Assembly (NCBI GenBank): GCA_021203325.1
Contig: JAJQBL010000022.1
Location: forward strand, 1 to 48,087
DNA length: 48,087 nucleotides
From: Clostridiales bacterium
GTDB lineage: Bacteria; Bacillota; Clostridia; Oscillospirales; Oscillospiraceae
Reading direction: 5' to 3'
In this document: piece by piece, positions 24,938 to 48,087 of the stretch
Position numbering within the stretch: the stretch's first letter is position 1
How the letters are laid out: the number at the start of each line of letters is the position of its first letter
The notes under the pieces: generated by a model
Database searches by the model: none
Told to the model about the DNA's origin: nothing
Seen by the model: the letters and a program-made list of their open reading frames with translations, nothing else
Translations under genes and position numbers: made by a program

Positions 24938-27900
24938 ATGGTGAAGCAATGTGTGAAAAAGCCGTTTACCGTGTTGGTTGCCGTCATCATTGCGCTGGTG
25001 CTGGGGGTGGTGTGCATGACGCGGATGACCACCGACCTGCTGCCGGAGATGAGCCTGCCCTACATGGTGGTTATCACCACCTACCCCGGCGCAAGCCCGG
25101 AAAAGGTGGAGGCCAACGTAACGGAGCCGCTGGAGAGCGCTTTGGGCACCGTCAGCGGCGTGGAGAACGTCACCAGCAGCAGCGCGGAGAATTACTCCAT
25201 GATTATGCTGGAATTCGAGGATGACACGGATATGGACTCTGCCATGGTCAAGGTGGATTCCGCCTTACAGGATGTGGAGAGCTCTCTGCCCGACCTGTGC
25301 GGCACCCCCAACGTCATGGAGATCAGCATGGACATGGTGGCCACCATGTACGTCAGCGTGGACTACGAGGGGAAGGACATCTATGCGCTGTCCGACTTCG
25401 TGGAGGACATCGTGACGCCCTATTTCGAGCGGCAGGACGGCGTGGCCAGCGTCTCCACCGCGGGCCTGGTGGAGCAGACCATCGAGGTGCGGCTGAACCA
25501 GGACAAGATTGATGCGATCAACAACAAGCTCCTGGCCTCCGTGCTGGACACCCTGGAGGAGACGAAGCAGGAGATTGAAGATGCCCAGGCGGAGCTGGCC
25601 GACGCCCAGGCGGAGCTGGACGACGGCACCGCCGAGTTGGAGGACCAGCAGGAGGAGACCTCAGAGGAGCTGGCGGAGGCCAGCCTGGCCCTGAATCAGG
25701 CCATCGCCACCCAGAGCGCCTATGAGGCCCAGCTGGCCAGCCAGCAGGCCAATCAGACGGCCCTGGAAACGGAGCTGGAGGCCTATGAGACGGCGGGGAT
25801 TCAGGAGAGCTATGAGGAGCTGGAGGCCCTGTTCCAGACCCTCCAGGACACCGCCGCCAGCGAGGAAACCTACAACGCCATCTATGACGCGGCCTACAGC
25901 CAGGTCCTGATTTCCGCCACCCAGTCCGTGGTGGACAGCATGGCGGCCAGCGGCCTGATGGAGTCCGTCACGGTGACGGAGGACAATGTGGAGGCGATTT
26001 TGGAGATGCTGGACAGCACCTCTGCCGCATCCTCCGGGGCCTCCGCCTCTGACACCGCGGCTTCTGACACCGGTGCTTCCAGCGCTTACGAGACCCTGTC
26101 CGCCCTGCCCGAGGAGCAGCTGCTGGCCTACCTCTCTACCCTGTCGGAGGAGGAAGTCGCTGCCCTGCTGGCGGGCATGACGGAGGAGGAGCTGGCCGCC
26201 CTGCTGCCCAGCCTGTCCGATACGGAGCGGGCCGCCCTGCTGGCCCTGGCGGACACGGCGGAGGGAACGGACACAGAGAACACCGGGAACACGGAGAACA
26301 CAGGGGACGCCTCCGGCAGCGCTTCTTCCACCGGCGTCAAGGCGAGCCTGATTGCCACGGCGGAGGACGCGGCCGCATCCGTGGCGGAGAGCCAGGTGGC
26401 CGAGATGACTGCCAGCCTGCCCACCAGCGTGGAGGACGCCATCGCCAACCCGGAGAAGCTGGATTACGCGGTGTCGCTGCTGGAGACCCAGGGAATGGGG
26501 GAGGCGGCCTCCGCCCTGACGGTGGAGAATCTCACCACCATCTCTGACATCGTCAACACCCGCATCCCCCAGATCGAGACGGAGCTTGCCAATCTGGAGA
26601 TCAAAATCGCCGTGGCCACCGCCACGGTGGAGGCGGTGAACTCCGCCGTGGAGGAGGCTGTCAACAGCTATACCACGGTGGAGGCCGGGAAGATTTTGGC
26701 GGCGGCGGGCTTTGGCTCCGCCAGCGCCCAGCTGTCGGCGGCGCAGACCGCCCTGGAGGACGGGCAGAGCCAGCTGGACTCCGCCCTGGAATCCTACGAG
26801 GCCGCCCGGGAGACCGCCATTGCAAGCGCCAACCTGGATGCCCTGCTGGACATCGACACCCTGGCCACCCTGATTTACGCCCAGAACTTCTCCATGCCCG
26901 CCGGGTATGTGGACGATGCGGACGACAACCAGTGGCTGCTGAAGGTGGGCGAGGAGTACAGCAGCCTGGAGGACCTGGAGAGCATGGTGCTGTGCAATCT
27001 GGACAGCGTAGGAGACGTGACCCTGGGGGACGTGGCCGACCTGACGGTGATCGACAACGCCGCAGACAGCTACACCCGGGTCAACGGTGAGGCCGGTGTG
27101 GTGCTGTCCATCTTCAAGGGCAGCACCGCCGGCACCAGCGACGTTTCCGCCGCCTGCAACGACGCCATTGAAGAGCTGGAGGAGAAGTATGACGGCCTGC
27201 AAATTCAGCCGCTGATGGATCAGGGCGAATATATCTCGCTGATTATCTCCAACATTCTGGAGAGCATGATTCTGGGCGCTCTGCTGGCCATCGTGATTCT
27301 GGCCCTGTTCCTGAAGGATATCCGGCCCACGCTGGTGGTGGGTTTCTCCATCCCCTTCAGCGTCCTGATTGCCCTCCTGCTGATGTACTTCACGGACATT
27401 TCGCTGAACATCATGTCCCTGGGCGGCCTGTCCCTGGGCATTGGCATGCTGGTGGATAACTCCATCGTCGCCATAGAAAATATCTACCGGCTGCGGGGCC
27501 GGGGCCTGCCCGCCCCCCGGGCGGCGGTGCAGGGGGTGAAACAGGTGGCGGGGGCGCTGATTTCCTCCACCCTGACCACCATCTGCGTGTTCCTGCCCAT
27601 GATTTTCACCACGGGCTACACCCGGGAGCTGATGTACCCCATGGCGCTGACCATCGGCTACGCCCTGATTGCCTCCCTGGTGGTGGCGATGACGGTGGTG
27701 CCCACGGTGGCCTCCACCCTGCTGAAAAGCGTCCAGCCCAAGTCCCACCCCTGGTTTGACAAGCTGGTGGACGGCTACGGGAAGGTGCTGGACTTCTGCC
27801 TGCGGGTGAAGGTGGTGCCTCTGGGCCTGGCCATCGCCCTCTTTGCGGTGGCCGTGTTCGGCGTGGCGCGGATGGGTATGGTGATGATACCCGATATGTC

Positions 27901-29573: not shown

Positions 29574-32000
29574 TTACCCGCGGGTGTGGACGTGCCAGAT
29601 GTTGTTGGCATAGTCATGGATGGAGCGGTCGGCGGCAAACTTGCCGGACTTGGCGATGTTGACCAGCGCCATCTGGTTCCAGCGGCGGCTGTCGCTGTAG
29701 GCGGTGACGATGCGGTTCTGCATATAGCGATAGCTCTCGAAGTCCGCCAGCAGCAGATAGTTGTCCGCCGTGTAGCCCTGGCCGAAGAGCAGGCTGTTGG
29801 TGATGTCCTGATAGCTCTTGCCGTCGGAGAAGCCGGTGTTCAGCTTGTTCAGCACCCGCTGAATGGTGGGGCTGGCGTTGTAATACTCATAGGAGTTGTA
29901 GCCGGCGGCCTTCTTGTCGGCCACCTCCTCGGCGGTGAGGCCAAAGATGAAGATGTTGTCGTCGCCCAGGAGCTGGTGCATCTCCACGTTGGCGCCGTCC
30001 TCGGTGCCGATGGTCAGGGCGCCGTTCATCATGAACTTCATGTTGCCGGTGCCGGAGGCCTCCTTGCCGGCGGTGGAGATCTGCTCGGAAATCTCGGCGG
30101 CGGGCATCAGCTTCTCCGCAATGGACACCCGGTAGTTCTCGATGAAGAACACCTGGAGCTTGCCCTTGCAGCGGGGGTCGTTGTTGACCTCATAGGCCAC
30201 GGAGTTGATCAGCTCAATGATGCGCTTTGCCATATGGTAGGCAGAGGCGGCCTTTGCGGCGAACAGGAAGGTGTGAGGCACGATGTCCTTCCCGTCCTGA
30301 ATCTGCTGGTACAGGTAGATGATGTTCATCACGTTCAGCAGCTGGCGCTTGTACTCATGGAGGCGCTTGGACTGGACATCGAAGACGGCGTCGGTGTTCA
30401 GGCTGTAGCCGTATTCCCGCTTGCAGTAGGCGGCGAAGGACTCCTTGTTGGCCTTCTTGATCTGGCCCAGCCGCTCCAGCACGGCGGCATCGTCCCTGGC
30501 CCGCAGGAAGTCCTCCAGCTTGCCCGGCTGGAGCAGATAGTCGTCGCTGCCGTTGACCTCGCAAATCAGGTTGTGCAGCTCAGGGTTGATCTCGGCCAGC
30601 CAGCGGCGGTGATCCACGCCGTTGGTGACGTTGGTGAACTTCTCCGGGGTGCGGAGATAGGCGGTGTGGAACACATCGTCCTTCAGAATCTGGCTGTGCA
30701 GCTCGGCCACGCCGTTGACGGCGAAGCAGGTGGCCACGCACAGGTTTGCCATGCGCACGTCCCCGTCCCAGACGATGGCCAGCTCACGGGCTTTGGACTC
30801 GTCATTGTGGAAGAAGGCCCGGACCTCTTTCAGGTAGCGCTCATTGATTTCGCAGATGATCTGCCAGCACCGGGGCAGCAGGGCGATGATCAGGTCCTGA
30901 GGCCAATGCTCCAGGGCCTCGGCCAGCACGGTGTGGTTGGTGTAGGCCACGGTGCGGGTGACGATGCTCCAGGCCTCGTCCCAGCCGAAGCCGTTCTCAT
31001 CCATCAGGATGCGCATCAGCTCGGGGATGGCCAGGGTGGGATGGGTGTCGTTGATTTGAATGACGTGCTTCTCAGCGAAGTTGCGCAGGGTGCCGTACTG
31101 GGCTTTGTGCTTGCGGACGATGGACTGCACCGCGGCGGAGGCGAAGAAGTACTGCTGCTTCAGCCGGAGCATCTTGCCCTCGTAGTGGTCGTCGGCGGGG
31201 TACAGCACCTTGGCGATGACCTCGGCGTTGGCCCGCTCCTCAATGGCCTTCAGATACTCGCCGGAGGAGTAGCGCTGCATATCCTCACGGACGGGGCTCT
31301 TGGCGTCCCACAGCCGCAGGGTGTTGACGTGGTCGGTCTTGTAACCGGCGATGTTCATGTCCATGGGGACGGCCAGCGCGGTGGTGCCGCCCACATAGTC
31401 CACGGTGAACTTGCCGTCCTCGTTCAGATAGGTCTTGACCTCGCCGCCGAAGCGAACGGTCTCCGTCTCGTCCCACTTGGGCACCAGCCAGGCGTCGCCC
31501 AGCTCCAGCCAGTCGTCGGACAGCTCCTCCTGGCGGCCGTCAATGATCTTCTGGCGGAACATACCCAGCTGATAGCAGATGGAGTAGCCGGTGGCGGGGA
31601 TCTCCTCCGTGGTCATGGAGTCCATATAGCAGGCGGCCAGGCGGCCCAGGCCGCCGTTGCCCAGGGAGGCGTCCGGCTCCAGCTCAAAGATTTCGGCGGG
31701 GTCGAAGCCCATCTCGCTGATGGCGTCCTTCAGTTCGGGCAGGATGCCCAGGTTGTAGGCGTTCTTCATCAGGGAACGGCCCACCAGGAACTCCATGGAG
31801 AGGTAATGCACCTCACGGGCGTTGATGGAGCGGTTGTAGTTGACGGTTTCGATATGGTTGCTGCTCATAATGTCCCGCAGCACCATGGCGCAGGATTTGA
31901 ACATCTGCACCTTGGAAGCCACCTGAGGGGTACGGCCAAAGTTGCGGCGCAGCTTGCCCTCGATCAGGGCGGAGAGTTCATATTTTGAATATTCGCGCAT
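29574..32000 (-). CDS. glgP: Glycogen phosphorylase
   Basis: An 808-residue GT35 phosphorylase releasing glucose-1-phosphate from glycogen or maltodextrin. The start at 32000 is set by GGAGG 10 bases upstream; the frame is open further upstream but overlaps the promoter. The PLP-lysine motif is intact (EASGTGNMKFMMNGAL, TIGTEDGANVE). VHYLSMEFLVGRSL and GNGGLGRLAACYMDSM are family signatures. The length is standard. It is transcribed on its own from a clear promoter, away from the glycogen synthesis genes at 40-45.7 kb, which permits opposite regulation. Confidence 0.97.
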   Translation of the reverse strand: MREYSKYELSALIEGKLRRNFGRTPQVASKVQMFKSCAMVLRDIMSSNHIETVNYNRSINAREVHYLSMEFLVGRSLMKNAYNLGILPELKDAISEMGFDPAEIFELEPDASLGNGGLGRLAACYMDSMTTEEIPATGYSICYQLGMFRQKIIDGRQEELSDDWLELGDAWLVPKWDETETVRFGGEVKTYLNEDGKFTVDYVGGTTALAVPMDMNIAGYKTDHVNTLRLWDAKSPVREDMQRYSSGEYLKAIEERANAEVIAKVLYPADDHYEGKMLRLKQQYFFASAAVQSIVRKHKAQYGTLRNFAEKHVIQINDTHPTLAIPELMRILMDENGFGWDEAWSIVTRTVAYTNHTVLAEALEHWPQDLIIALLPRCWQIICEINERYLKEVRAFFHNDESKARELAIVWDGDVRMANLCVATCFAVNGVAELHSQILKDDVFHTAYLRTPEKFTNVTNGVDHRRWLAEINPELHNLICEVNGSDDYLLQPGKLEDFLRARDDAAVLERLGQIKKANKESFAAYCKREYGYSLNTDAVFDVQSKRLHEYKRQLLNVMNIIYLYQQIQDGKDIVPHTFLFAAKAASAYHMAKRIIELINSVAYEVNNDPRCKGKLQVFFIENYRVSIAEKLMPAAEISEQISTAGKEASGTGNMKFMMNGALTIGTEDGANVEMHQLLGDDNIFIFGLTAEEVADKKAAGYNSYEYYNASPTIQRVLNKLNTGFSDGKSYQDITNSLLFGQGYTADNYLLLADFESYRYMQNRIVTAYSDSRRWNQMALVNIAKSGKFAADRSIHDYANNIWHVHTRG

Positions 32001-32155
32001 AAATTCCAGTCCTCCAATTTGCGTCTTGTGATGCGAAGGCTCTGCCAGTTTGCCTGTGAAGGGCGGCCGGAAGGGGCCGCAGCGTTGGCTCCGGGTCCTG
32101 CATCGGGGGAAATTCCATTCATTTTGCGGGGTGCGGTATGGGAACCGCTTTGGAA

Positions 32156-32184
32156 ATTTTAGCATAAAAGGGGTGAAATGTCAA
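32156..32184 (-). promoter_or_regulatory. Sigma-A promoter of glgP
   Basis: On the minus strand TTGACA (32179-32184) and TAAAAT (32156-32161), 17-bp spacer. It gives a leader of about 150 bases. Confidence 0.88.
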
Positions 32185-36270: not shown

Positions 36271-38355
36271 ATGGCAGACTTTATTTCCCAGCTTGGCAGC
36301 TATTTCCAGCTCGGGCTGGACGTTCTTGGGACGCTGTTCCGGCATACAGCCTTTCAAATTCTTTGCAGCTATTGTTTTCAGTTCCTGATGCCCCTTTTCG
36401 GGGTGCTGATCGTGGTTCGGTGCGGCCGGAGCATGCTCCAGGGCAAGCCGGAGCAGGAGCTTTGGGGCTCCCTGGTGCTGCCCAACGGGGCACAGCTGCC
36501 CCTGTACCACTGGGAGAATCTGGTGGGCCGGGCGAAGCGGTGCGACGTGGTGCTGCCCTACGCCACCGTCTCCCGGAGCCACGCCGCCCTGATTCGGGAC
36601 GATCGGGGGCGGTGGGTGCTCCACCCCCTGAACACAAAGAACGGCGTCACCCTGAACGGCATCCCCGTGACGGAAAGCGTTCAGCTGGCCCCCCGGGACA
36701 GCATTGGCTTCGGCGGGGTGGAGGCCATGTTCCTGCCCCTGACCGCGGAGGAGGAGCGGCAGCAGATGAAGCGCCGCACCCGGCCCGGCAAATTCCTTTC
36801 CCCCAGCGTCACGCTGCTCCTGCTGACCCTGTTCCAGGGGATGCTGCTGGGGAGCCTGTGCATGGCCCTGCCGGACAGCGGCGCCACCATCCTGACCTGC
36901 TTCGGCCTGCTGATGGGGATGGAGTGGCTGCTCTACCTGATTTACCGGCTGGCCCGGCGCACCGGCTTTGAGCTGGAGACCCTGGCCTTCTTCCTGACCT
37001 CCCTCTGTCTGACGGTGACGGCCTCCTCCAGCATCTCCACTCTGTACCGGCAGACCCTTTGCGTGGCCCTGGGGCTGGTGCTGTTCTTTGTGCTGAACCT
37101 GATTCTGCGGGATCTGGACCTGGCCAAGGGAGTGCGCTGGCCCCTGGCCATCGGCTCGGTGGCGCTGCTGCTGTTCAACGTGCTGTTTGGGGAGCGGCTG
37201 TTCGGCGCGAAGAACTGGGTATCCATCGGCCCCCTCTCCTTCCAGCCCTCGGAGCTGGTGAAAATCGTGTTCATCCTAGTGGGGGCCGCCACCCTGGACA
37301 GGCTCTTTGACCGGAAAAACCTGCTGGGCAGCCTGCTGTTCAGCGTGTTCTGCGTGGGCTGCCTGGTGCTGATGAGCGACTTTGGCACGGCCCTGATCTT
37401 CTTCGTGGCCTTCCTGGCCATCGCCTTCCTCCGCTCCGGCGACCTGGCCTCTGTCATCTTCATGGTGGCGGCGGCAGGCACCGGGGGGATGCTGGTGTTG
37501 CACTACAAGTCCTATATCGCACAGCGGTTCGCCATCTATCGCCACGTCTGGGAGGACACCGCCAACCTGGGCTACCAGCAGACCCGCACCATGTCCGCCA
37601 TCGCCAGCGGCGGCCTCTTTGGCCGGGGCGTCGGCAGCGGCTGGCTCCAGAATCTGGGGGCGGCCAACACCGACCTGGTGTTCGGCGTGGTCAGCGAGGA
37701 GCTGGGGCTGATTGTGGCGGTGTGCGCCGTGGCCAGCATTGTGCTGATGGCCCTGTTCGCCATCCGGCAGGCGGCGGCCGCCCGCTCCAGCTTCTATGTG
37801 ATCGGGGCCTGCGCCACCAGCATGCTGCTGCTGGTGCAGACCATGCTGAACGTGTTCGGCTCCGTGGACCTGCTGCCTCTGACGGGGGTGACCTTCCCCT
37901 TCGTCTCGGTGGGAGGCAGCAGCATGATCTCCTGCTGGGGACTGCTGGCCTTTTTGAAGGCGTCGGACGCCCGGCAGAACGCCAGCCTTGCCATCCGCCT
38001 CCCCGGCAGGCGGAAGCGCGGCTCTGAGGTGGAACCGCCCCAGCGGCAGACGCCGCCGCCCTCCGCCAACCGTCAGCCCCCCGCAGCCGACAGCGGCCGG
38101 GAGGAGACCAGAATCATGTCCACCGCCTCCACAGAGGAAGAAACCGTGGTGCGCCGCCCGGAGGAGCCTGTCCGGGAGGACGCCCCCAACCCCCCGGAGG
38201 AGGACGAGACCACCCGTCTCCGGCGGGAGGCGCCGCCCGCGGACCAACCGGAGCCGGACGCTGACGCATCGTCTTACGCGGACGGGGACGCGCCCCTCCA
38301 CTCGGATGCGGACGACTGGGAGCAATATTTCCAGTGGGAGGAGGATGACCCATGA
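36271..38355 (+). CDS. FHA domain fused to SEDS glycosyltransferase (FtsW/RodA family)
   Basis: A 694-residue membrane protein; ordinary FtsW/RodA proteins are near 400. An N-terminal membrane helix (about 30-52) is followed by a cytoplasmic FHA domain (about 80-150) with the phosphothreonine-binding residues Gly86-Arg87, Ser101, Arg102, His104 and Asn124. The SEDS core (about 170-585) has GPLSFQPSELVKI, SDFGTALIFF, GLFGRGVGSG, NTDLVFGVVSEELG and PFVSVGGSSM. This family polymerises lipid II. The C-terminal 110 residues are an acidic, Pro-rich disordered tail with three Glu/Asp-Thr motifs (Thr613, Thr625, Thr647/648) resembling kinase sites read by FHA domains. It overlaps the PBP gene by ATGA, forming a polymerase/transpeptidase pair. 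Whether it serves division, elongation or sporulation is not decidable here. Confidence 0.93.
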   Translation: MADFISQLGSYFQLGLDVLGTLFRHTAFQILCSYCFQFLMPLFGVLIVVRCGRSMLQGKPEQELWGSLVLPNGAQLPLYHWENLVGRAKRCDVVLPYATVSRSHAALIRDDRGRWVLHPLNTKNGVTLNGIPVTESVQLAPRDSIGFGGVEAMFLPLTAEEERQQMKRRTRPGKFLSPSVTLLLLTLFQGMLLGSLCMALPDSGATILTCFGLLMGMEWLLYLIYRLARRTGFELETLAFFLTSLCLTVTASSSISTLYRQTLCVALGLVLFFVLNLILRDLDLAKGVRWPLAIGSVALLLFNVLFGERLFGAKNWVSIGPLSFQPSELVKIVFILVGAATLDRLFDRKNLLGSLLFSVFCVGCLVLMSDFGTALIFFVAFLAIAFLRSGDLASVIFMVAAAGTGGMLVLHYKSYIAQRFAIYRHVWEDTANLGYQQTRTMSAIASGGLFGRGVGSGWLQNLGAANTDLVFGVVSEELGLIVAVCAVASIVLMALFAIRQAAAARSSFYVIGACATSMLLLVQTMLNVFGSVDLLPLTGVTFPFVSVGGSSMISCWGLLAFLKASDARQNASLAIRLPGRRKRGSEVEPPQRQTPPPSANRQPPAADSGREETRIMSTASTEEETVVRRPEEPVREDAPNPPEEDETTRLRREAPPADQPEPDADASSYADGDAPLHSDADDWEQYFQWEEDDP

Positions 38356-39704
38356 AACAGCTGAAAAAACGCGCCCTGTTCGTGCTGCTCTTTGCCATCC
38401 TGATGGTGGCGGGGCTGGTGATTTTCCTGGGCCTCTATGTGGCCAACGGGGAGGACTGGGCCACCTTCCAGGCCAACCGCCACGTCTACTCCAACGGGAA
38501 AATCGCGGTGGGCACGATTACCGACCGGGACGGCACCGTGCTGTACGACTGCGAAACCGGCAGCTATGCCGATGATGCCACCCTCCGCAGGACCACCCTC
38601 CACGCGGTGGGGGACGGCGCGGGCAACATCGGGGCCGGGGCCCTCCAGCTCTTTGCCAACCTGCTGATTGATTACAGCCCCATCTTCGGCACCGGCGGCA
38701 CCGGGAACACGGTGACCCTGTCCATCGACGGGGACTTGAACAAAGTGGCCTATGAGGCCCTGGACGGCCAGAGCGGCACGGTGGCCCTGTACAACTACAA
38801 GACCGGGGAGCTCCTTTGCATGGTGTCCTCCCCCGCCTACGACCCGGAGGATGCATCCGAGGTGGCGGCGGTGGCCGCCGGGGACAGCGCCTACACCGGG
38901 GCCTACCTGAACCGGTTCCTCTCCAGCACCTACACCCCCGGCTCCACCTTCAAGCTGGTGACCGCCGCAGCGGCCCTGGAGAACCTGGACATGGAGAACT
39001 TCTCCTACACCTGCACCGGCAGCATCACCGTGGACGGGGCCACCGTCACCTGTTCCGGCAAGCACGGCACCCAGACCTTTGGGGAGTGCCTGACCAACTC
39101 CTGCAACTGCGCCTTCGCCACCCTGGCCCTGGAACTGGGGGGCGACGTGCTGGAGGAATACGCCCGGGCGGCGGGCCTGCTGGACAGCAGCGCGGTGAAC
39201 GGCTTCACCACGGCGGCGGGCAGCTTCACCGCCAGCCCGGACGGCAGCGCGGCCCTGGCCTGGTCCGGCGTGGGCCAGTCCACCAATCTGGTGAACCCCT
39301 GCGCGGAGCTGGTGCTGATGGGCTGCATTGCAAACGGCGGCACCGCCGCCAGCCCCACCATGCTCAGCGATGTGACGGGGCCAATGGGCTTCTCGGTGTA
39401 CGACGAGGAGGCGGGCAGCTTTACCGTCGGCTGGTCGTCCGGCACCTGCAACACCCTCAAGTGGATGATGCGGGACAACGTGCTGAACAAGTACAGCAGC
39501 ACCCTGGACTTTGGCGACCTGACCGTGTGCGCCAAGTCCGGCACCGCCGAGGTGGGGGAGGGGGAGCCTCACGCCTGGTTTGTGGGCTTTGTGGACTCCA
39601 CCGTTACCCCTTACGCCTTTGTGGTCATCGTGGAGCATGGCGGCACCGGCGTGGAGGCCGCGGGCAAAATCGCCGCTGAACTGCTGGCTGCGGCCTGCGG
39701 GTGA
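38352..39704 (+). CDS. Class B penicillin-binding protein (transpeptidase)
   Basis: A 450-residue bitopic transpeptidase that cross-links peptidoglycan made by the overlapping SEDS partner. One membrane helix lies at residues about 8-30. The penicillin-binding motifs are in order: S198TFK201 (nucleophile Ser), S250CN252, and K395SGT398. The N-terminal non-catalytic part is short (about 120 residues), as in PbpA-type proteins paired with RodA-like genes in Actinobacteria and many Clostridia. It resembles a compact FtsI/PbpA. A four-base ATGA overlap with the upstream gene implies coupled translation. A strong terminator follows. Confidence 0.94.
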   Translation: MKQLKKRALFVLLFAILMVAGLVIFLGLYVANGEDWATFQANRHVYSNGKIAVGTITDRDGTVLYDCETGSYADDATLRRTTLHAVGDGAGNIGAGALQLFANLLIDYSPIFGTGGTGNTVTLSIDGDLNKVAYEALDGQSGTVALYNYKTGELLCMVSSPAYDPEDASEVAAVAAGDSAYTGAYLNRFLSSTYTPGSTFKLVTAAAALENLDMENFSYTCTGSITVDGATVTCSGKHGTQTFGECLTNSCNCAFATLALELGGDVLEEYARAAGLLDSSAVNGFTTAAGSFTASPDGSAALAWSGVGQSTNLVNPCAELVLMGCIANGGTAASPTMLSDVTGPMGFSVYDEEAGSFTVGWSSGTCNTLKWMMRDNVLNKYSSTLDFGDLTVCAKSGTAEVGEGEPHAWFVGFVDSTVTPYAFVVIVEHGGTGVEAAGKIAAELLAAACG

Positions 39705-39726
39705 CCGCTTTGACAAACTTTTATAC

Positions 39727-39764
39727 GCGCACCGCCGGTTCACCCGGCGGTGCGCATGTTTTTT
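39727..39764 (+). terminator. Intrinsic terminator after the PBP gene
   Basis: 12-bp stem GCGCACCGCCGG / CCGGCGGTGCGC, then ATG and a run of T. Confidence 0.88.
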
Positions 39765-39841
39765 ACCGATACCCGGCCCTGCCTGCGTTTACCGTCAATA
39801 AAGAAGGACCAACTTTTAAAAGTCGTTTCGCAAAAAATGGG

Positions 39842-39870
39842 TTGACGAAAGGGAAGAAACATTGTATAAT
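39842..39870 (+). promoter_or_regulatory. Sigma-A promoter of the glycogen synthesis operon
   Basis: TTGACG (39842-39847) and a perfect TATAAT (39865-39870), 17-bp spacer. The leader to the first ATG is about 135 bases, without a recognised RNA element. Confidence 0.9.
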
Positions 39871-40011
39871 TTTTACAAAGGCAAATCTGCCCTTCCGGGC
39901 GACGGCGGGCGGAAATCGCCTTTTCCCCGGTTTTCTTCCGCTTTTCAGCAAAAGAAAGGGAGAAACCGGGAAAAGTTCGACAGATTATCAGCAGAATGGA
40001 GCGATACGGTA

Positions 40012-41787
40012 ATGCAGGATACTCCCGCTTCCCAGCGGCTGGGGGCGTTTCCCTGCGTCCAGAGCGGACAGGCAGGCTGGATGTTCCGCGTGGCTGCGCC
40101 TGCCGCGGCAGGCGTCAGCGTGGTGGGCGACTTCAACCAGTGGGACCCGGGCCACGACCCCATGCAGCAGGTGGGGGAGGGCGTCTGGCAGACCTTTCTC
40201 CCCTATTTGCGGGAGTATGACACCTACAAATACGCCCTTCGCACCCGGGAAGGGGACATACTTTATAAGTCCGACCCATACGCTTTCCATAACGATACCC
40301 CGCCGGACAACTGCAGCAAGCTGTATGACGGGACGGGGTACCGCTGGAGCGACGACAGCTGGTTCGCCTTCCGCCGGCGGAAGCGGCTGGGCAGAAGCCC
40401 GCTGAACTGCTACGAGGTGCATCTCGGCTCCTGGCGGAGGACCGGCATGGGGGAGGCGCTCTCCTACCGCGCCATGACGGGCTACCTGGTGCCCTATGTG
40501 AAAACGATGGGTTACACCGCCGTGATCTTCATGCCGCTGATGGAGCATCAGGAGGACGGCAGCTTCGGCTACCTGCCGGACAGCTGGTTTGCCCCCACCT
40601 CCCGTTTCGGCCCGCCGCAGGACTTTATGCACCTGATTGATGAGCTGCACCGGGCCGGGGTCGGCGTCTTTATGGACTGGCCCTGCGGCAGCTTCCCGGT
40701 GAACGAGCATGGCCTGGCCGGGTTTGACGGCTCCGCCCTCTATGAGACGGAGGAGGAGGTCGAGCAGGAGGGTGTGCGCACCTTTGACTTCTCCAAGCCC
40801 CTGGTGCGCCGGTTCCTGACGGATTCCGCCCTGTTCTGGCTGGAGCATTACCACCTGGACGGCCTGCGGGTCTGCGGCACCAGCGTGATGCAGACGGCGG
40901 ACGCCCATGCCTTCCTTGAGGAGCTGGTGCAGCGCACCAGGCGGGACGCGCCGGAGCGGGTCATCACCCTGGGCAAGGTCATCATCACCGACTCCGCCAG
41001 CACCAGCGGCAACCTCTGCCTGAACCGGGGCTGTGAGGACCATCTGCTGACCTCCTTTTACCAGAACAACGAAGCCGGGCGCTTTGTTTCCGGCATCTTC
41101 TCCCCCCTCCACTCCTGCATCCCGCCTCTGGGGACGGAGTTTGCCGAGACTATTTCCCACCTGATCGCCGGCGGGGGAGAGCCTCAGGGCACCAGGCTGG
41201 CGGCATCCCGGCTGTGCCATCTGCTGCTGCTGGCCTATCCGGGGAAAAAGCTCACCTTCATGGGCACCGAGTTCGGCCAGGAGAAGCCCTGGGACTACCG
41301 CTATTCCCTGGACTGGCACCTGCTCCACTACGATGCCTATCACCGGCAGCAGCGCTTCTTCCGGGAGGCGAACCTCCTCTACCTGTCCCAGCCCGCTTTT
41401 TGGGAGCGGGACAACGACCCGGAGGGCTACCAGACCCTGATCCGCTATGACGAGCTGCAAAAGGCATCGGCCATGCGGCGGGCGGGCATGGAGGACAGCC
41501 TGCTGGTGGTGCTGAACTTCTCCAAACGAAAAACATTCCGGTGCAGCCTCCAGGTGGAGGGGCCCGGCTCCTACCGGGTGCTGCTGAACACCGACGACGC
41601 CGCCTATGGCGGCCAGGACCGGGGCAGCAGAGGCATTCTCACCGCCGCGGAGGCGGAGCGGGGCTATCAGCTGCCCCTGGAGGTGCCCCCTGTGGGCGGC
41701 CTGGTGGTGGCCTTCGAGGGGCCGCCGGAGCCCTCCCCCATTCTTCTCCCCGTTGATGAAACGGACAGTCTCCGTTTTTTCAAATAG
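40012..41787 (+). CDS. GlgB-like branching-enzyme homologue without catalytic residues
   Basis: A 591-residue protein clearly derived from glycogen branching enzyme: CBM48-like N-terminus (VSVVGDFNQWDP, KSDPYAF), then YEVHLGSWRR, FMDW, and late PGKKLTFMGTEFGQ and SLDWHLL. The GH13 catalytic residues are all replaced. Relative to E. coli GlgB, nucleophile Asp405 (RVDAV) is Cys288 (RVCGT), acid/base Glu458 (AEES) falls in GKVI at 321-324, and Asp526 (SHDE) is Leu384 (SHLI); the region-I His is Ser. About 40 residues around the active site are also shortened. ATG 40012 has GGAG 10 bases upstream; earlier in-frame codons overlap the promoter. The frame is intact and it leads the glg operon, so it is probably a maintained pseudoenzyme (glucan-binding or scaffold), not debris. 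Confidence 0.88.
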   Translation: MQDTPASQRLGAFPCVQSGQAGWMFRVAAPAAAGVSVVGDFNQWDPGHDPMQQVGEGVWQTFLPYLREYDTYKYALRTREGDILYKSDPYAFHNDTPPDNCSKLYDGTGYRWSDDSWFAFRRRKRLGRSPLNCYEVHLGSWRRTGMGEALSYRAMTGYLVPYVKTMGYTAVIFMPLMEHQEDGSFGYLPDSWFAPTSRFGPPQDFMHLIDELHRAGVGVFMDWPCGSFPVNEHGLAGFDGSALYETEEEVEQEGVRTFDFSKPLVRRFLTDSALFWLEHYHLDGLRVCGTSVMQTADAHAFLEELVQRTRRDAPERVITLGKVIITDSASTSGNLCLNRGCEDHLLTSFYQNNEAGRFVSGIFSPLHSCIPPLGTEFAETISHLIAGGGEPQGTRLAASRLCHLLLLAYPGKKLTFMGTEFGQEKPWDYRYSLDWHLLHYDAYHRQQRFFREANLLYLSQPAFWERDNDPEGYQTLIRYDELQKASAMRRAGMEDSLLVVLNFSKRKTFRCSLQVEGPGSYRVLLNTDDAAYGGQDRGSRGILTAAEAERGYQLPLEVPPVGGLVVAFEGPPEPSPILLPVDETDSLRFFK

Positions 41788-41830
41788 TAAACCGCATCTA
41801 TACCCAATCTTTAGTACGAGGTGACCATCC

Positions 41831-43048
41831 ATGAAAAAGGAATGTGTTGCCGTGTTGCTGGCCGGTGGCCAGGGCAGCCGTTTATACGCGCTGACCAAAA
41901 ACGTGGCAAAACCCGCCGTCCCCTTCGGCGGCAAGTATCGAATCATCGACTTCCCCCTGTCCAACTGCGTCAACTCCGGCATCGACACCGTCGGCGTGCT
42001 GACCCAGTACCGTCCCCTGGAGCTGAACTCCTACCTGGGCAACGGTGAGCCGTGGGATTTGGACATTGCCGACGGCGGCGTCCACATCCTCAGCCCCTAT
42101 TCCACCTCCGGCGAGTCCGGCTCCTGGTATAAGGGCACCGCCAACGCCATCTATCAGAACATCGGATTCATCGACCAGTATGATCCCGACTATGTCATCG
42201 TCCTGTCCGGCGACAACATCTCCAAGATGGACTACAAGGATATGCTGGAGACCCACAAGAAGGCAGGCGCCGCCGCCACCATCTCCGTGCTGACCGTCAC
42301 CATGGAGGAGGCCAAGCGCTTCGGCATCATGAACTGCAACCCGGATGACACCATCTACGAGTTCGAGGAGAAGCCCGCCCATCCCAAGAGCAATCTGGCC
42401 TCCATGGGCGTGTACTGCTTCACCTGGTCCAAGCTCCGCAAGTACCTGATCGAGGACGAGAACACCCCCGGCTCCTCCAATGACTTCGGCAAGAACATCA
42501 TCCCCAATATGCTGAACAACGGCGAAAAGATGGTGGTCTACCGCTTCAACGGCTACTGGAAGGACGTGGGCACCATCGCCTCCCTGTGGGACGCCAATAT
42601 GGACATTTTGAATATCCCCAATGCCGAGCTGGACATTTACGACAAGGAATGGCCCCTGTACGCCCGTAACCCCATCGTTCCCCCGCACTTCATCGGTGAG
42701 CATGCCACCACCAACCACTCCTTTGTGGCAGGCGGCTGCGTGGTGGACGGCGAGGTGGATAACTCCATCCTCTTCAACTCCGTCACCATCGAGCGGGGCG
42801 CCAGCGTCCGTTATTCCATCCTGATGCCCGGCGCAACGGTGAAGGCCGGGGCCGTGGTGGAGTATTCCATCCTGGCGGAGGACTCCGTCATCGGCGCAGG
42901 CGCCGTGGTGGGCTCTGAGCAGGACCCCAAGGACCCCAACAAGAAGATCGCCGTCGTGGGCAGCAAGGTTTCCGTAGGCCCCGGCGCCGTCATCGAGGCC
43001 GGCGCCATGCTGAACCCTGAAACTCTGAAAGGCGGTGAGGCAGAATGA
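41831..43048 (+). CDS. glgC: Glucose-1-phosphate adenylyltransferase
   Basis: A 405-residue ADP-glucose pyrophosphorylase, the committing step of glycogen synthesis. The nucleotide-binding motif [23 protein letters not shown] is intact, as are [14 protein letters not shown], the catalytic Asp motif ([11 protein letters not shown], with Asn where His is common) and [12 protein letters not shown] for sugar-phosphate binding. The C-terminal quarter is a left-handed beta-helix of hexapeptide repeats ([24 protein letters not shown]). It overlaps glgD by ATGA; in Firmicutes GlgC and GlgD form a heterotetramer with higher activity than GlgC alone. Confidence 0.97.
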
Positions 43049-44160
43049 AAAACATTCATACCCTCATTTTTACAAACCAGGCCAACTATGACCTGAAGGA
43101 GCTGACCGAGGTCCGCTCCATGTCCGCCGTCCCCTACGGCGGCCGCTTCCGCATGATCGACTTCGTGCTGTCCAACTGTGTGAACGCCGGCATCACCGAC
43201 ATCGGCGTTGTGCTGGAGCAGAACTATCAGTCCCTGCTGGACCATATCGGCACCGGCAAGCACTGGGATCTGGCCCGCCGCCGCGGCGGCCTGCGTCTGC
43301 TGCCCCCCTTCTCCATGAAGAGCTCCAGCAGCAGCGGCCATCTCCGCGGCCGCATGGAGGCCCTGGCCAGCCTGGATTCCTATCTGAATCAGATCCGCCA
43401 GGAGTATGTCCTGCTGACCGACGGCGACATCGCCCTGAACATCGACCTGAGCAAGGTCTATGACCAGCACCTGGCCTCCGGCGCGGACATCACCATCGTC
43501 TGTGTCCCCAACCACATCGGCGACCCCCAGCAGACCACCTATGTGATCCCCGCCGAGGACGGCACCATTGCCGACATTCTGGAGAAGCCGGACGAGGCCG
43601 AGGGGCTGGAGTACATCTCCATGGCTCTGCTGAGCAAGGAGCTGCTGATCAAGGTCAACAAGTACTGCTCCACCCACAATCTGTACTCCTTCTCCAACGA
43701 CGTGCTGGTGGGGATGAGGGACAAGCTGAAGATCATGCCCTATGTCTTTGAGGGCTATTGCGCCCGGTTCACCAGCGTCGCCTCTTACTATGAGAAGAGC
43801 ATGGACCTGCTGAAGCCCACGGTGCGGGATGAGCTGTTCGACGCCAAGCACCCCATCCGCTCCAAGGACCGCACCGACGCCCCCACCTACTACGCCCCCG
43901 GCTCCGCGGTGAAGAACTCCATGGTCGCCGACGGCTGCGTCATCGAGGGCACGGTGGAGAACTCCATCCTGTTCCGGAACGTCACCGTGGCCAAGGGCGC
44001 CGTTGTGAAGAACGCCATCCTCATGAAGGGTACCGTTGTGGGCGAGAACGCCCAGGTCAACTGCACCATCGCCGATAAGGATGTCACCGTCTCCCCCAAC
44101 AGCAACCTGTCCGGTCATCCCAACTATCCCCTGCTGATTGCCAAGGGCAGCCAGGTGTAA
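43045..44160 (+). CDS. glgD: Glycogen synthesis protein GlgD (non-catalytic GlgC partner)
   Basis: A 371-residue GlgC paralogue. The Gly-rich nucleotide-binding loop of GlgC is missing ([21 protein letters not shown] in its place), the defining feature of GlgD. The fold is otherwise conserved: [37 protein letters not shown], and a C-terminal beta-helix ([21 protein letters not shown]). It is made from the same mRNA as GlgC with a 4-base overlap, favouring one-to-one assembly. A 96-base gap with a small CCGCCG/CGGCGG hairpin separates it from glgA. Confidence 0.95.
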
Positions 44161-44256
44161 GGGTTCTCAAAATCATCTAAGGGCACCTGCCCTTTCCGCC
44201 GTACACGGCGGGACGGCCCAAAGCACAGCGTTCCCTGAAAGAAAGGATAACTGTAT

Positions 44257-45690
44257 ATGAACATTTTCTTTGTCTCCTCCGAAGTCGCCCCCTTCGTCAA
44301 GACGGGCGGACTGGCGGACGTTGCATCCTCTTTACCTCCTGCACTGGCGGATTTGGGCAACGATGTGCGTGTCGTCCTGCCGCTGTACGCCGCGATTGGC
44401 GATCAGTGGCGCAGTCAAATGACGTTCGTGAAGTATTTCTACTTCCGGCTCGGCTGGCGCTCCAGCTACTGCGGCCTGTTTGAGCTGCAAAGGGGCAACA
44501 TTACCTACTACTTTGTGGATAACGAGACCTACTTTAAGCGCAACGGCCTCTACGGCCACTATGACGACGGGGAGCGGTTCGCCTACTTCTCCCGGGCCTG
44601 CATCGAGATTCCGGACCAGATCGGCTGGAAGCCCGACATCATCCACGCCAACGACTGGGAGACCGCTCTGGTGCCCATCTACCTGCTGGAGGCCCGCCGT
44701 ATGCGGCCCAGCCTGGCAAAGACCAAGAGCGTCTATACCATTCACAACATCGAGTATCAGGGTCGGTTCGGCCGCTCCATTCTGGAGAATGTCTTTGGCC
44801 TGGACACCAGCTATTTCAATGAGAATATGCTGAGCTTCTACGGCGATGTGAACCTGATGAAGGGGGCCATCTACGCTGCCGACCATGTGACCACCGTTTC
44901 CCCCACCTACGCCGGGGAGCTGCAATACAGCTTCTACGCCCACGGGCTGGAGGGCGTGGTGGTGGCCAACTACAACAAGATCACCGGCATCCTGAACGGC
45001 ATCGACATGGAGGCCGCCAACCCCGCCACCGACCAGCTCATCGCCGCCAACTTCACCCCCGACGACCTCAGCGGCAAGGCCTTCTGCAAGGCCGCCCTGC
45101 AAAAGGAGCTGGGGCTGGAGGAGGACCCGGATGCGGCCATCATCGCCTGCATCTCCCGGCTGGTGGGGCACAAGGGCTATGACCTGATCACCAACGTGTT
45201 CAGCCGCATTATGTCCAACCACGTCCAGTTTGTCCTCCTGGGCACCGGGGAATGGGGCTTTGAGGAGTTCTTCCGCAACGCGGAGCGGCAGTATCCCGGC
45301 CGGGTCAGCGCCAACATCAAGTACGCCGCCACCCTGTCCGACCAGATTTACGCCGGTGCGGACATCATGCTGATGCCCTCCATCGCGGAGCCCTGCGGGC
45401 TGACCCAGATGTTCGCCATGCGCTACGGCACCGTGCCTGTGGTGCGGCTCACCGGCGGACTGAAGGACTCCGTCCCCTCCTACAACACCATCACCGGAGA
45501 GGGGCTGGGCTTCACCTTCGTCAACATCAACGCCGACGATATGCTGGACGCCATCAACCGGGCGCTGGAGGTCTACACCAACGACCCGGTGGCCTGGGCC
45601 AGGCTGCAAAAGCGGGACATGGAGGCCGATTTCAGCTGGGGCAAGTCCGCCGCTGAGTATCTGGAGGTCTACGAGAGCCTGTTGAAGTGA
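44257..45690 (+). CDS. glgA: Glycogen synthase (ADP-glucose)
   Basis: A 477-residue GT5 glucosyltransferase extending alpha-1,4-glucan from ADP-glucose. The ADP-glucose motif KTGGLADV is at residues about 15-22; HANDWETALVPIYLL and YTIHNIEYQGRFG follow; the C-terminal half has CISRLVGHKGYDLI and the catalytic SIAEPCGLTQMFAMRYGTVPVV. AAAGGA lies upstream of the ATG. The length and order of motifs are normal. It is the last gene of the glg operon and ends at a strong terminator. Confidence 0.97.
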   Translation: MNIFFVSSEVAPFVKTGGLADVASSLPPALADLGNDVRVVLPLYAAIGDQWRSQMTFVKYFYFRLGWRSSYCGLFELQRGNITYYFVDNETYFKRNGLYGHYDDGERFAYFSRACIEIPDQIGWKPDIIHANDWETALVPIYLLEARRMRPSLAKTKSVYTIHNIEYQGRFGRSILENVFGLDTSYFNENMLSFYGDVNLMKGAIYAADHVTTVSPTYAGELQYSFYAHGLEGVVVANYNKITGILNGIDMEAANPATDQLIAANFTPDDLSGKAFCKAALQKELGLEEDPDAAIIACISRLVGHKGYDLITNVFSRIMSNHVQFVLLGTGEWGFEEFFRNAERQYPGRVSANIKYAATLSDQIYAGADIMLMPSIAEPCGLTQMFAMRYGTVPVVRLTGGLKDSVPSYNTITGEGLGFTFVNINADDMLDAINRALEVYTNDPVAWARLQKRDMEADFSWGKSAAEYLEVYESLLK

Positions 45691-45727
45691 CACAGACGCC
45701 TTTGCCAAAACCATCAAACGGAATCAG

Positions 45728-45759
45728 GGACGCCGCAGCGCAGCTGCGGCGTCCTTTCT
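45728..45759 (+). terminator. Intrinsic terminator of the glg operon
   Basis: Perfect 12-bp stem GGACGCCGCAGC / GCTGCGGCGTCC, GCA loop, then TTTCT. Confidence 0.88.
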
Positions 45760-45810
45760 GCGCGGACACAGGACGCCCCGCCGGACAAACGAAAAAACAT
45801 TGATAAATTC

Positions 45811-45838
45811 TTGACAAGCTCAGGATTCTGCGTATAAT
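45811..45838 (+). promoter_or_regulatory. Sigma-A promoter of the short-chain dehydrogenase gene
   Basis: TTGACA (45811-45816) and TATAAT (45833-45838), both perfect consensus, 16-bp spacer. Confidence 0.88.
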
Positions 45839-45953
45839 GGGAAACAGGGGCAGAGAGATGCCGCCGCAAAAACGTTCGGCCTCGGCCGGACGCCTGACGG
45901 CGTCTTTCGCAGAACGCAAATTTAATACAAATGCTGTGTAAGGAGTGGTTCGT

Positions 45954-46739
45954 ATGTTTGATTACAAAGGCAAGGTAGTGGCCATCACCGGGGCATCCTC
46001 CGGTCTTGGCAAGCAGATGGCGGAGGGATACGCCCAGATGGGCGCAAACCTGGTTCTGCTGGCCAGACGGAAGGAGCGGCTGGAGGCCAGCGCAAAGGAG
46101 TGGTCCGAGAAGTACGGCGTCCAGGTGCTGCCGGTGGCCTGCGACGTGACGAAGGCGGACTCCATCGCCGCCGCGGTGGCAAAGGTGGACGAGGTGTTCG
46201 GCCATGTGGAGGTCATCGTGAACGACGCCGGAGGCGAAAAGGGCACCGGGACCCCGCTGGTGGACTACAAGAAGGAGGACTGGGACTTCACCCTGGGCCT
46301 TGACCTGACCTCCGTGTTTTCCGTGACCCAGGCCTTCGTCAAGCTGATGCAGAAGGCCATGGCGGAGGGGAAGCAGACCTATGGCCGCGTCATCAACATC
46401 GCCTCCATCTACGGCATGGTGGGCAACACCGCCCTTCCCACCATCGCGTACCACACCACCAAGGGCGCTGTGGTGAACTTCACCCGGGGCGCGGCCGCGG
46501 AGCTGGCCACCTCCGGCATCACGGTGAATGCCATTTGCCCGGGGTATTTCTACACCGAGCTGACCACCGAGACGCTGGACAGCGACTATTTCCAGGCCTT
46601 CGCCAACACCTCCGTCCCCATGAAGCGGTACGGCCACGCCGGTGAGCTGAACTCCGCCGCCATCTTCCTGGGCGCGGAAGAGTCCAGCTATGTCACCGGT
46701 CAGATTCTGGCTGTGGACGGCGGCTACACCTGCGTGTAA
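45954..46739 (+). CDS. Short-chain dehydrogenase/reductase
   Basis: A 261-residue classical SDR. Cofactor motif ITGASSGLGKQMAEGYAQMGA with a following LARR suggests NADP(H) or NAD(H) use. The catalytic Ser is in NIASIYG and the YxxxK pair in AYHTTKGAVVNF. CPGYFYTELTTE and YVTGQILAVDGGY close the fold. The ATG at 45954 has AAGGAG 8 bases upstream; a GTG at 45945 overlaps that site and is rejected. It resembles FabG and gluconate 5-dehydrogenase-type oxidoreductases, and the substrate cannot be assigned. It has its own promoter and terminator. Confidence 0.93.
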   Translation: MFDYKGKVVAITGASSGLGKQMAEGYAQMGANLVLLARRKERLEASAKEWSEKYGVQVLPVACDVTKADSIAAAVAKVDEVFGHVEVIVNDAGGEKGTGTPLVDYKKEDWDFTLGLDLTSVFSVTQAFVKLMQKAMAEGKQTYGRVINIASIYGMVGNTALPTIAYHTTKGAVVNFTRGAAAELATSGITVNAICPGYFYTELTTETLDSDYFQAFANTSVPMKRYGHAGELNSAAIFLGAEESSYVTGQILAVDGGYTCV

Positions 46740-46777
46740 GCGCCGGTTTCCGGGAACGTTTTCCTTCAACCATATCA

Positions 46778-46806
46778 GGGACGCCGAAAAAATCGGTGTC
46801 CCTTTT
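46778..46806 (+). terminator. Intrinsic terminator after the SDR gene
   Basis: GGGACGCCGA / TCGGTGTCCC stem (one G-T pair), then TTTT. Confidence 0.85.
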
Positions 46807-46829
46807 CAAAAAAATAATCGTTAGGTACC

Positions 46830-46858
46830 TTGACAAATAAGGCGAAGGGTGCTAGAAT
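46830..46858 (+). promoter_or_regulatory. Sigma-A promoter of the nitrogenase-like gene
   Basis: TTGACA (46830-46835) and TAGAAT (46853-46858), 17-bp spacer. Confidence 0.85.
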
Positions 46859-46922
46859 AAAGCCATACCAAGGAAAAAACAACCCGCATCGGCGGGGCGA
46901 TTCAGTAAAGGATGATTTTTGA

Positions 46923-48087
46923 GTGAATACAACGAGAACGATTACGAAACAGAAGCAGCGGGGCATGGCCTTCAGCGGCTTCGCCCTGGTGCCGGAGACC
47001 CAGATCCTCTTTATCGGGGCCATGGCCTGCACCCGTCACCGGGCCCAGGAGCTGACCGAGCTGCAAAAGCAGGGGCGGCTGGCCTTCCTGTGCCTGGACG
47101 AGGTGGACTTCATCACCGGGCGCTACCTGAGCAAAATCGAGGAGGCCATCACGGAGCTGGTGGAGGAGCGGCACCCCGGCGGCATCTACCTGACGGCGGG
47201 CTGCCAGGCGGCGCTGCTGTCCACGGACTGGCAGCTCCTCATCGACAAGATGGAGGCGAAAAGCGGCGTGCTCATCCGTGCCCACACGGGCTGCCACCTG
47301 TGCGGCGTGCAGCATGACGCCGGGGCGGCGGACGAGGATTCGGTGGATTCCATGGTCTTCGACCTGCTGCAAAAGGCGGAGCGGAGTGAGGAGGTCAGCG
47401 TCAACGTGCTGACCACCGGCGAGCTGGCGCCGGACAGCGAGCTGCGCCAGCTGCTCACCGGGGCCGGGATTCGGCATATCAACCTGCTGCGGGAGTGCAA
47501 AACCTTTGCCCAGTATCAGGAGATGGCCAGGGCACACCTGAACATCGTCTGCGTAGAGGACGGCGGCGAGGCCCTGGGCCAGCGGCTCCAGGCCCGGCTG
47601 GGCATCCCCTATGTGGTGCTGGGCGGCGTTTACGGCGCGGAGGCGCTGGAAAATGCCTATCAGGCCATCGGCCAGGCCCTGGGGGTCACGCTGGACACGG
47701 CGGCCTATCGCGCCCGGCTGGAGGAGCAGCTTGCACAGGCGAAGAACGCCTGCGGGAAGGACACCCTCACCGTGGAGGGCAGCCTTGCCGTGGCAAAGTG
47801 GCTGTACGAGGCGGGCCTGCCCGTCAACCGGGTAACGGCGGAGCTGAGCAGTGACAATCAGGACCTGCAAAGCTGGTTCGCAGCCAGCGCCCCCTCCGTA
47901 AAGGTGGAAAAGGCCGTGGGCCGTCAGGGCGGCTACGGCATTGGAAAGCCCGGCTACGGCGGACAGGGCCGGGGCCGCGGCGAAGGCGGTGGCAAACCGG
48001 AATGGGCCGGACGCAATCGCGGCGAAGGCGGCGGCAGACCGGAATGGGCCGGACGCAATCGCGGCGAAGGCGGCGGCAGACCGGAAT
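46923..48087 (+). CDS. Nitrogenase-component-1-like protein with Gly/Arg-rich repeat tail, partial
   Basis: An open frame of 388 residues running off the right edge without a stop. GTG start at 46923 with AAAGGAT about 9 bases upstream. Residues about 15-330 resemble the nitrogenase component 1 / NifD-like oxidoreductase family found outside nitrogen fixation: ILFIGAMACTRHRAQEL, FLCLDEVDFITGRYL, GGIYLTAGCQAALLSTDW and AHTGCHLCG, with several cysteines that could hold a cluster. From about residue 335 it becomes Gly/Arg-rich (GYGGQGRGRGEGGG) and enters a 14-residue tandem repeat. No nifH-like gene is present in the window. The family call is from motif pattern only. The tail is odd for this fold. 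Confidence 0.65.
   Translation, partial: MNTTRTITKQKQRGMAFSGFALVPETQILFIGAMACTRHRAQELTELQKQGRLAFLCLDEVDFITGRYLSKIEEAITELVEERHPGGIYLTAGCQAALLSTDWQLLIDKMEAKSGVLIRAHTGCHLCGVQHDAGAADEDSVDSMVFDLLQKAERSEEVSVNVLTTGELAPDSELRQLLTGAGIRHINLLRECKTFAQYQEMARAHLNIVCVEDGGEALGQRLQARLGIPYVVLGGVYGAEALENAYQAIGQALGVTLDTAAYRARLEEQLAQAKNACGKDTLTVEGSLAVAKWLYEAGLPVNRVTAELSSDNQDLQSWFAASAPSVKVEKAVGRQGGYGIGKPGYGGQGRGRGEGGGKPEWAGRNRGEGGGRPEWAGRNRGEGGGRPE
47985..48087 (+). repeat. 42-bp tandem repeat encoding GGG(R/K)PEWAGRNRGE
   Basis: Two full 42-bp copies (47985-48026 and 48027-48068) and a partial third cut by the window edge. Copies 1 and 2 differ at only two bases. It encodes an RGG-like 14-residue unit in frame. 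Confidence 0.92.

Follow-up and report, generated by a model that had tools for sequence, protein, structure and literature searches.

The glycogen operon in a 48,087-nt stretch of DNA (hereafter the window; contig C16 of a 2.57-Mb draft genome in 160 contigs) opens with a gene for a homologue of the branching enzyme GlgB that has lost its catalytic residues and is nevertheless kept under purifying selection. An intact branching enzyme of a different type is encoded on another contig of the same genome, and the course of events that we consider probable is enzyme replacement, after which the old GlgB was retained as a non-catalytic, most likely glucan-binding, partner in glycogen synthesis. 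The labels GH13_9 for the operonic GlgB and GH13_8 for the second, eukaryote-like one are our own assignment and not that of a CAZy call.

The features of the window discussed here are listed in Table 1. The reading frame of the operonic homologue is uninterrupted, and its CBM48, alpha-amylase, and alpha-amylase C domains, all above the Pfam cut-offs, make up the domain set of GH13_9 GlgB (CBM48, GH13 barrel, and C-terminal all-β domain). The top NCBIfam matches are likewise GlgB models, with scores of 429, 427, and 370 bits that miss the respective cut-offs of 741, 577, and 464. This shortfall is weak evidence against activity, because the intact GH13_8 copy also falls below those cut-offs.

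Table 1. Features of the window, with positions counted from its first nucleotide.
Feature	Position	Strand	Evidence
glgP, glycogen phosphorylase, ~8 kb from the glgB homologue	29574..32165	-	PF00343 978 bits; TIGR02093 1034 bits
Intrinsic-terminator-like hairpin, 3' of penicillin-binding-protein gene	39727..39755	+	12-pair stem, 11 G-C pairs, T-rich tail
Promoter-like TTGACG-17-TATAAT of glycogen operon	39842..39870	+	11/12 matches, 17-nt spacer
Shine-Dalgarno-like GGAG, 10 nt 5' of ATG	39998..40001	+	reading by eye
Eroded operonic GH13_9 GlgB homologue, pseudoenzyme, 591 aa	40012..41787	+	Pfam, NCBIfam, phmmer, alignment, dN/dS, model
CBM48 domain, residues 10-91	40039..40284	+	Pfam CBM_48 8.2e-16
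Trp44 = E. coli W159, glucan site IV, in CBM48	40141-40143	+	kept in 14/14 representatives
Cys288, in place of nucleophile Asp (E. coli D405)	40873..40875	+	alignment
GKVI 321-324, in place of acid/base motif AEES; Gly321 = E458	40972..40983	+	alignment
Low-confidence stretch, residues 323-371, expected site of barrel β6-β7 and region-III/IV loops	40978..41124	+	pLDDT <50
Trp435 = E. coli W586, glucan site I	41314..41316	+	kept in 14/14 representatives
C-terminal all-β domain, residues 489-566	41476..41709	+	Pfam PF02806 1.7e-09
glgC, glucose-1-phosphate adenylyltransferase	41831..43048	+	NF003670 564 bits, cut-off 470
glgD, non-catalytic GlgC paralogue, 4-nt overlap with glgC	43045..44160	+	TIGR02092 313.5 bits, cut-off 236.6
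glgA, glycogen synthase	44257..45690	+	NF001898 631 bits, cut-off 603

The original prediction of an intact frame behind a near-consensus promoter, preceding glgC-glgD-glgA, is confirmed, with all three downstream genes identified by NCBIfam matches and with the frame open in all seven window-clade genomes, counting that of the window itself. The promoter-like site ends ~140 nt 5' of the ATG, and shuffled sequence averages 0.4 sites scoring at least 9/12. As a terminator-like hairpin also lies upstream, the glgB homologue is probably the first gene of a separate transcription unit shared with glgC-glgD-glgA. GlgD had been called a non-catalytic GlgC paralogue, in agreement both with its match to the GlgD equivalog model and with an excerpt of PMC9093745, where this subunit of ADP-glucose pyrophosphorylase is described as inactive alone and modulatory. 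No RNA families were found across positions 39000–47000 of the window.

Immediately 5' of the operon lies a compact cell-wall pair (36271–39704), in which the gene for an FHA-domain FtsW/RodA-like protein overlaps by 4 nt that of a short (450 aa) PBP2-like transpeptidase. Elsewhere, the 1495-aa product of positions 24938–29425 contains a region of AcrB-type RND transporter, the best stretch being 639–1455, and the final gene ends at the contig edge within Gly/Arg-rich repeats (47900–48086) with a unit of about GRNRGEGGGRPEWA. A 666-aa ORF is antisense to the pseudoenzyme gene (39988–41988, minus strand); comparable long frames stand opposite many genes of the window, as expected from its high G+C content.

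Mapping of the residues by MAFFT alignment with E. coli K-12 GlgB shows that the set found in active enzymes (Asp nucleophile, Glu acid/base, Asp stabiliser, and region-I His) is replaced by C/G/T and S. The roles of the triad in GH13 branching enzymes are outlined in an excerpt of PMC11046441. The replacements originally proposed for the nucleophile (Cys288), for the AEES motif (GKVI, with Gly321 opposite E458), and for the region-I His (Ser227 opposite H340) are all borne out, and R403 is retained as Arg286. In the case of the third acid, the absence of an Asp stands, but not its assignment to Leu384, for which SHLI seems to have been read as SHDE; MAFFT places Thr375 opposite D526 and Glu376 opposite E527, this position being dependent on the alignment. 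A displaced Asp/Glu/Asp triad was looked for elsewhere in the protein, and none was found. The substitutions are identical in all seven window-clade genomes, more than would be expected by chance.

The protein had also been described as aligning with GlgB along its whole length. It is indeed a GlgB relative, but residues 292–396 stay unaligned in two phmmer alignments with solved GlgBs, and this segment coincides with a shortened part of the barrel. The AlphaFold2 model (53 aligned sequences) adopts a confident GlgB fold (mean pLDDT 82.8, pTM 0.85), with low confidence limited to the two ends and residues 323–371, and its best 50 Foldseek matches are all branching enzymes (TM 0.82 to chain B of 4lpc). 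In this prediction, no strand of three or more residues is present between 317–320 and 412–416, leaving the eight-stranded barrel incomplete, whereas L051, an intact relative for which the same rows served as input, is modelled confidently in this region, with strands 396–398 and 436–440. Strand β7 bears the stabilising Asp in GH13 enzymes (PMC11046441, excerpt). The active site of the window protein is thus gone chemically and, in the model, also structurally, and the protein probably lacks branching activity.

A search for a second, intact glgB, suggested along with the original prediction, located one on contig C133 of the window's genome. The encoded protein scores 671 bits against human GBE1 and 224 bits against the best bacterial GlgB structure, and is thus closer to the eukaryote-type than to the GH13_9 enzymes; its catalytic set is intact. 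Such a GH13_8 GlgB is present in 29 of the 32 genomes of the genus; it was not found in G009 (67% complete), G029 (76%), and G031 (98%), and in the last of these the sole match in the GH13_8 search is the operonic gene. From 30 rows taken in the genus (two from G002), two are cut by contig ends at catalytic positions, and the remaining 28 all keep the six catalytic positions. A GH57 branching enzyme was rejected as the replacement, as a single weak match (21.7 bits, in G031) was obtained among seven genomes searched. On contig C14 of G006, the dead operonic glgB (46022–47794, in L124) and the intact GH13_8 glgB (73545–75566, in L158) are ~26 kb apart, and a second, more distant GH13_8 GlgB is found in G002 (C68, 8167–10161, L178), with 52% identity and one TGA within the match. 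Several glgB homologues per genome are reported for other gut species in an excerpt of PMC10395257.

Erosion of the operonic gene extends across the genus. A match to the window protein is present in 31 of the 32 genomes, G029 being the exception, and the order glgB homologue-glgC-glgD-glgA is conserved wherever the contigs reach. Scoring covered 28 genomes, since G018 carries a nonsense codon and contig ends cut or split the gene in G019 and G027; 26 of the 28 have lost one or more triad residues, and the lost residues vary by lineage. The nucleophile is C in the window clade (C/G/T at the triad positions in its seven genomes), S or G in six genomes (G021 and kin), G in G004, and T in eight (G005, G014, G026, G030, and others). 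G001 and G031 carry D526N as the sole change among the six motif residues, G002 combines E458D with D526F, and G028 has N/N/Q at the triad; the assembly of this last genome is doubtful (4.8 Mb, 10% contamination), and it stays in the triad counts even though its GlgB row forms a very long branch, but no conclusion is built on it. All six motif residues are kept in G024 and G025. A second, intact GH13_9 GlgB (~590–710 aa, with RMDA/RLDA and AEDS motifs) occurs in eight family genomes, as well as in the genus members G026 and G030, at loci (L221, L223, L225, L227, L228, L154, L155, and others) that have no glgC, glgD, or glgA in the stretch examined.

In quick trees built with a simple model, the genus rows of concatenated glgC, glgD, and glgA form one group, with G024 and G025 beside G002 within it and with G028 apart. 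The misplacement of G028 is due to a spurious glgD row, as its contig ends in glgC. The GlgB tree shows the same arrangement, which indicates vertical inheritance of the eroded genes rather than import. If catalysis is assumed never to have been regained, at least four losses took place within the genus. The eroded genes found outside it, in G032, G059, G085, and G092, are each placed beside intact relatives. The glgC-glgD-glgA tree places G085 next to the genus, and the GlgB tree places it, on a long branch, inside. Its unsure placement, together with G223 (a remnant described below) being unplaced, puts the losses at about seven to nine, with no fixed number. The stem of the window clade carries 0.97 changes per column in GlgB against 0.17 in GlgC-GlgD-GlgA, so that the change in GlgB appears to be a burst on this stem, with less inside the clade.

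At the level of the family, a GH13_9 GlgB is detected at E 1e-60 in 142 of 200 genomes, from 77 of 106 genera. Outside the genus, 117 rows from 107 of the 138 GlgB-bearing genomes were scored; the triad is kept in 113 rows (one with an unread residue at H340) and eroded in the four just named, all of which head glgC-glgD-glgA. Among the 79 loci listed from the named genome collection, all five of the window type are eroded and all 74 others intact. The GH13_8 GlgB has matches at E 1e-100 in 20 of the 200 genomes, four of these from the genus. Outside the genus it is present in three of four eroded and seven of 103 intact genomes (Fisher p = 0.0023, with genomes taken as independent). A version of this test with G223 added (p = 0.0003) was set aside as biased, since remnants had been sought in six genomes carrying the GH13_8 enzyme and in only four without it.

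Six more genomes outside the genus carry the GH13_8 enzyme and have no GH13_9 GlgB at E 1e-60. In one of them, G223, which belongs to another genus, a 462-aa eroded GlgB remnant lies directly 5' of glgC-glgD (contig C63; L352 1–1386, minus strand); the CBM48 tryptophan is missing by eye, and the remnant may represent this erosion at a more advanced stage. The other five (G144, 79% complete, G154, G164, G169, 77% complete, and G184) have glgC with an adjacent paralogue and no GH13_9 match at E 1e-10. The operonic protein is therefore dispensable in some lineages. The pattern in the family fits replacement followed by erosion or loss, with exceptions in both directions: no GH13_8 GlgB was detected in the eroded G031 (98% complete) and G092 (85%), and seven genomes outside the genus keep both enzymes, with the triad intact.

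The scheme that we regard as probable can be outlined as follows. The gene is the operonic GH13_9 GlgB of the family, inherited vertically, and in this genus, as well as separately in several other lineages, a GH13_8 enzyme encoded elsewhere would have taken over branching. Substitutions would then have deprived the operonic copy of catalysis, a loss to which, in the window clade, that of two barrel strands would have added, as judged from the model. The protein would have been kept as a folded, non-catalytic product of the unit that also yields GlgC, GlgD, and GlgA. It most likely binds α-glucan via CBM48 and the site-I tryptophan, and it may hold or orient the growing glycogen chain for GlgA or the GH13_8 GlgB, as proposed for plant ISA2. 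Replacement before erosion, glucan binding, the partner, and an effect on glycogen structure are the elements that we infer.

It could be asked whether the protein is instead a functionless one in slow decay, lingering after its replacement by the GH13_8 enzyme, perhaps because its translation keeps glgC-glgD-glgA expressed. The dispensability of the operonic protein, seen in the G223 remnant and in the five genomes with the GH13_8 enzyme and no GlgB before glgC, would agree with such decay, as would the excess of change on the stem of the window clade. Of the 31 genomes of the genus in which the gene occurs, two have broken copies, both in clade B: in G018, codon 323 of the match is a stop, and the readable part has Thr at the nucleophile, and in G017 there is a frameshift; these breaks may reflect decay or assembly error. 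Four further copies (G008, G009, G019, and G027) are partly visible owing to contig ends. In-match stops in G006, G010, G011, and G020 were rejected as disruptions, since they fall at codon 583 and yield 582-aa proteins with a C terminus nine residues shorter. All genus rows of glgC, glgD, glgA, and the GH13_8 glgB that are uncut by contig ends are full length.

Selection, estimated from Nei-Gojobori pairwise counts with no likelihood model, speaks against decay. For the whole gene, with the still-open portions of both broken copies included in clade B and rows cut by contig ends in clade C, median dN/dS is 0.135, 0.154, and 0.109 in the three eroded clades, the first value being that of the window clade. 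These values are above those of GlgA (0.04–0.07), GlgC (0.03–0.06), and the GH13_8 GlgB (0.075–0.097) in all three clades, which would suit decay, and in two clades are about those of GlgD (0.133, 0.187, and 0.073 in the same order). By domain (four unbroken copies of clade B and five of clade C), the dead barrel gives 0.10, 0.09, and 0.07, CBM48 0.12, 0.06, and 0.135, and the looser C-terminal domain 0.30, 0.13, and 0.21. Random point mutation of the gene is expected to create 5.3–5.8 stops per 0.1 substitutions per site; at the median dS of 0.29 between window-clade pairs, this amounts, by our own arithmetic, to about eight stops per lineage in the absence of constraint, and none is found before codon 583 among the seven copies. 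The losses, moreover, cluster in the active site, and the glucan-site tryptophans remain. Purifying selection has acted on the eroded genes since the catalytic residues were lost, and slow decay is accordingly an unlikely explanation. Frequent stops in relatives had been named at the outset as a sign of relaxed selection; none occurs early in the window clade, and a stop or frameshift interrupts the two clade B copies described above. Descent from an active family, loss of the catalytic residues and, as modelled, of a barrel segment, open frames, and purifying selection afterwards support the original prediction of a maintained pseudoenzyme.

What has been retained was assessed on 101 columns conserved in at least 95% of 115 intact rows (two of them extra genus copies), compared in 14 representatives: 13 eroded lineages or genomes, G223 not among them, and G025, in which the triad is kept. 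CBM48 keeps 10–12 of its 12 columns, the barrel 33–78 of 82, and the C domain 3–7 of seven; with the exception of G032, the representatives (13 of the 14) conserve CBM48 better than the barrel. D405 is lost in 11 and H340 in nine of the representatives. Of the glucan-binding sites of E. coli GlgB (PMC10254366, excerpt), the tryptophans of sites IV and I are present throughout (Table 1), W628 of site VI is lost in four representatives, the window clade among them, and most remaining residues are unconserved even in intact family members. The kept CBM48 and site-I tryptophans favour glucan binding by the window protein, and the pattern as a whole agrees with a dead barrel that has kept a surface for glucan binding.

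The same pattern bears on the view that the protein is a putative regulatory or assembly subunit acting by protein contact alone, for example with the GH13_8 GlgB or with GlgC/GlgD, and not by glucan binding. The gene adjoins that of a known non-catalytic subunit, GlgD, in plants the non-catalytic ISA2 is bound by its paralogue ISA1 (PMC12510319, excerpt), and the barrel is strongly constrained in spite of being dead. Since CBM48 and the two glucan-site tryptophans are among the best-kept columns, we consider a role by contact alone to be rather improbable.

Weak or altered branching may be considered where one or no motif residue has changed, as in G001/G031 and G024/G025, the more so as the GH13_8 enzyme was not found in G031; it is inapplicable to the window clade, with neither nucleophile nor acid/base and, in the model, with part of the barrel missing, and it is very improbable. 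A new catalytic activity, such as one with Cys288 as the nucleophile, would be in keeping with the invariance of this residue in all seven window-clade genomes, but is scarcely credible given that the position is occupied by C, S, G, T (N in the doubtful G028), or still D among eroded lineages, and that the window clade lacks the acid/base motif and, in the model, two barrel strands.

Retention of the replaced enzyme as a glucan-binding partner thus remains the preferred reading. A wider one, which we offer tentatively as quite possible, is that upon takeover by a GH13_8 enzyme the operonic GlgB has become repeatedly, about seven to nine times in the family, a non-catalytic glucan-binding subunit of the apparatus for glycogen synthesis, a convergent bacterial counterpart of ISA2, and that a structural role of GlgB is separable from branching. 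Bacterial GlgB has so far been regarded solely as an enzyme. The GlgBs that were eroded independently, with intact replacements alongside, are a natural experiment separating the catalytic from the structural part of this protein, and the series poses the question of whether surface glucan-binding sites alone shape glycogen. For annotation and metagenomics, it calls for caution: in this genus a "glgB" within the glycogen operon stands in most cases for a dead protein, with the functional gene at another locus.

Comparison with known systems places the window protein closest to GH13_9 GlgB of E. coli K-12 (1m7x, 4lpc, 8sdb), with which it shares the order of CBM48, barrel, and C-terminal domain, the fold, and the tryptophans of sites IV and I; its operon position in the family also corresponds to that of GH13_9 GlgB. 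Unlike the E. coli enzyme, it has no nucleophile, acid/base, third acid, or region-I His, and β6–β7 are lost in the model. GH13_8 enzymes (human GBE1, 4bzy, and rice BE1, 3amk) are resembled by the second GlgB of the genome and not by the window protein. GlgD is similar in that it, too, lacks catalysis, acts in the same pathway, is encoded in the same operon, and modulates an active paralogue (PMC9093745, excerpt), but it belongs to another enzyme family and occurs regularly in the glg operon of this bacterial family, whereas the erosion of GlgB is patchy. No retained, catalytically dead GlgB of this sort is described in the titles and abstracts of the open-licence papers searched; the nearest case found is the GlgA-GlgB fusion of Waddliaceae and Criblamydiaceae, which likewise has an inactivated branching-enzyme part in the glycogen pathway (PMC11046441, excerpt). 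There, inactivity came with gene fusion and the GlgC-GlgA pathway is defective, whereas here the protein is free-standing beside intact glgC-glgD-glgA. Plant ISA2 offers a parallel as a GH13 protein of α-glucan synthesis retained without catalytic residues, and an excerpt of PMC12510319 proposes that its effect stems from the arrangement of glucan-binding sites in ISA1/ISA2 assemblies; it differs in belonging to a debranching family of plants and green algae and in having ISA1 as its partner.
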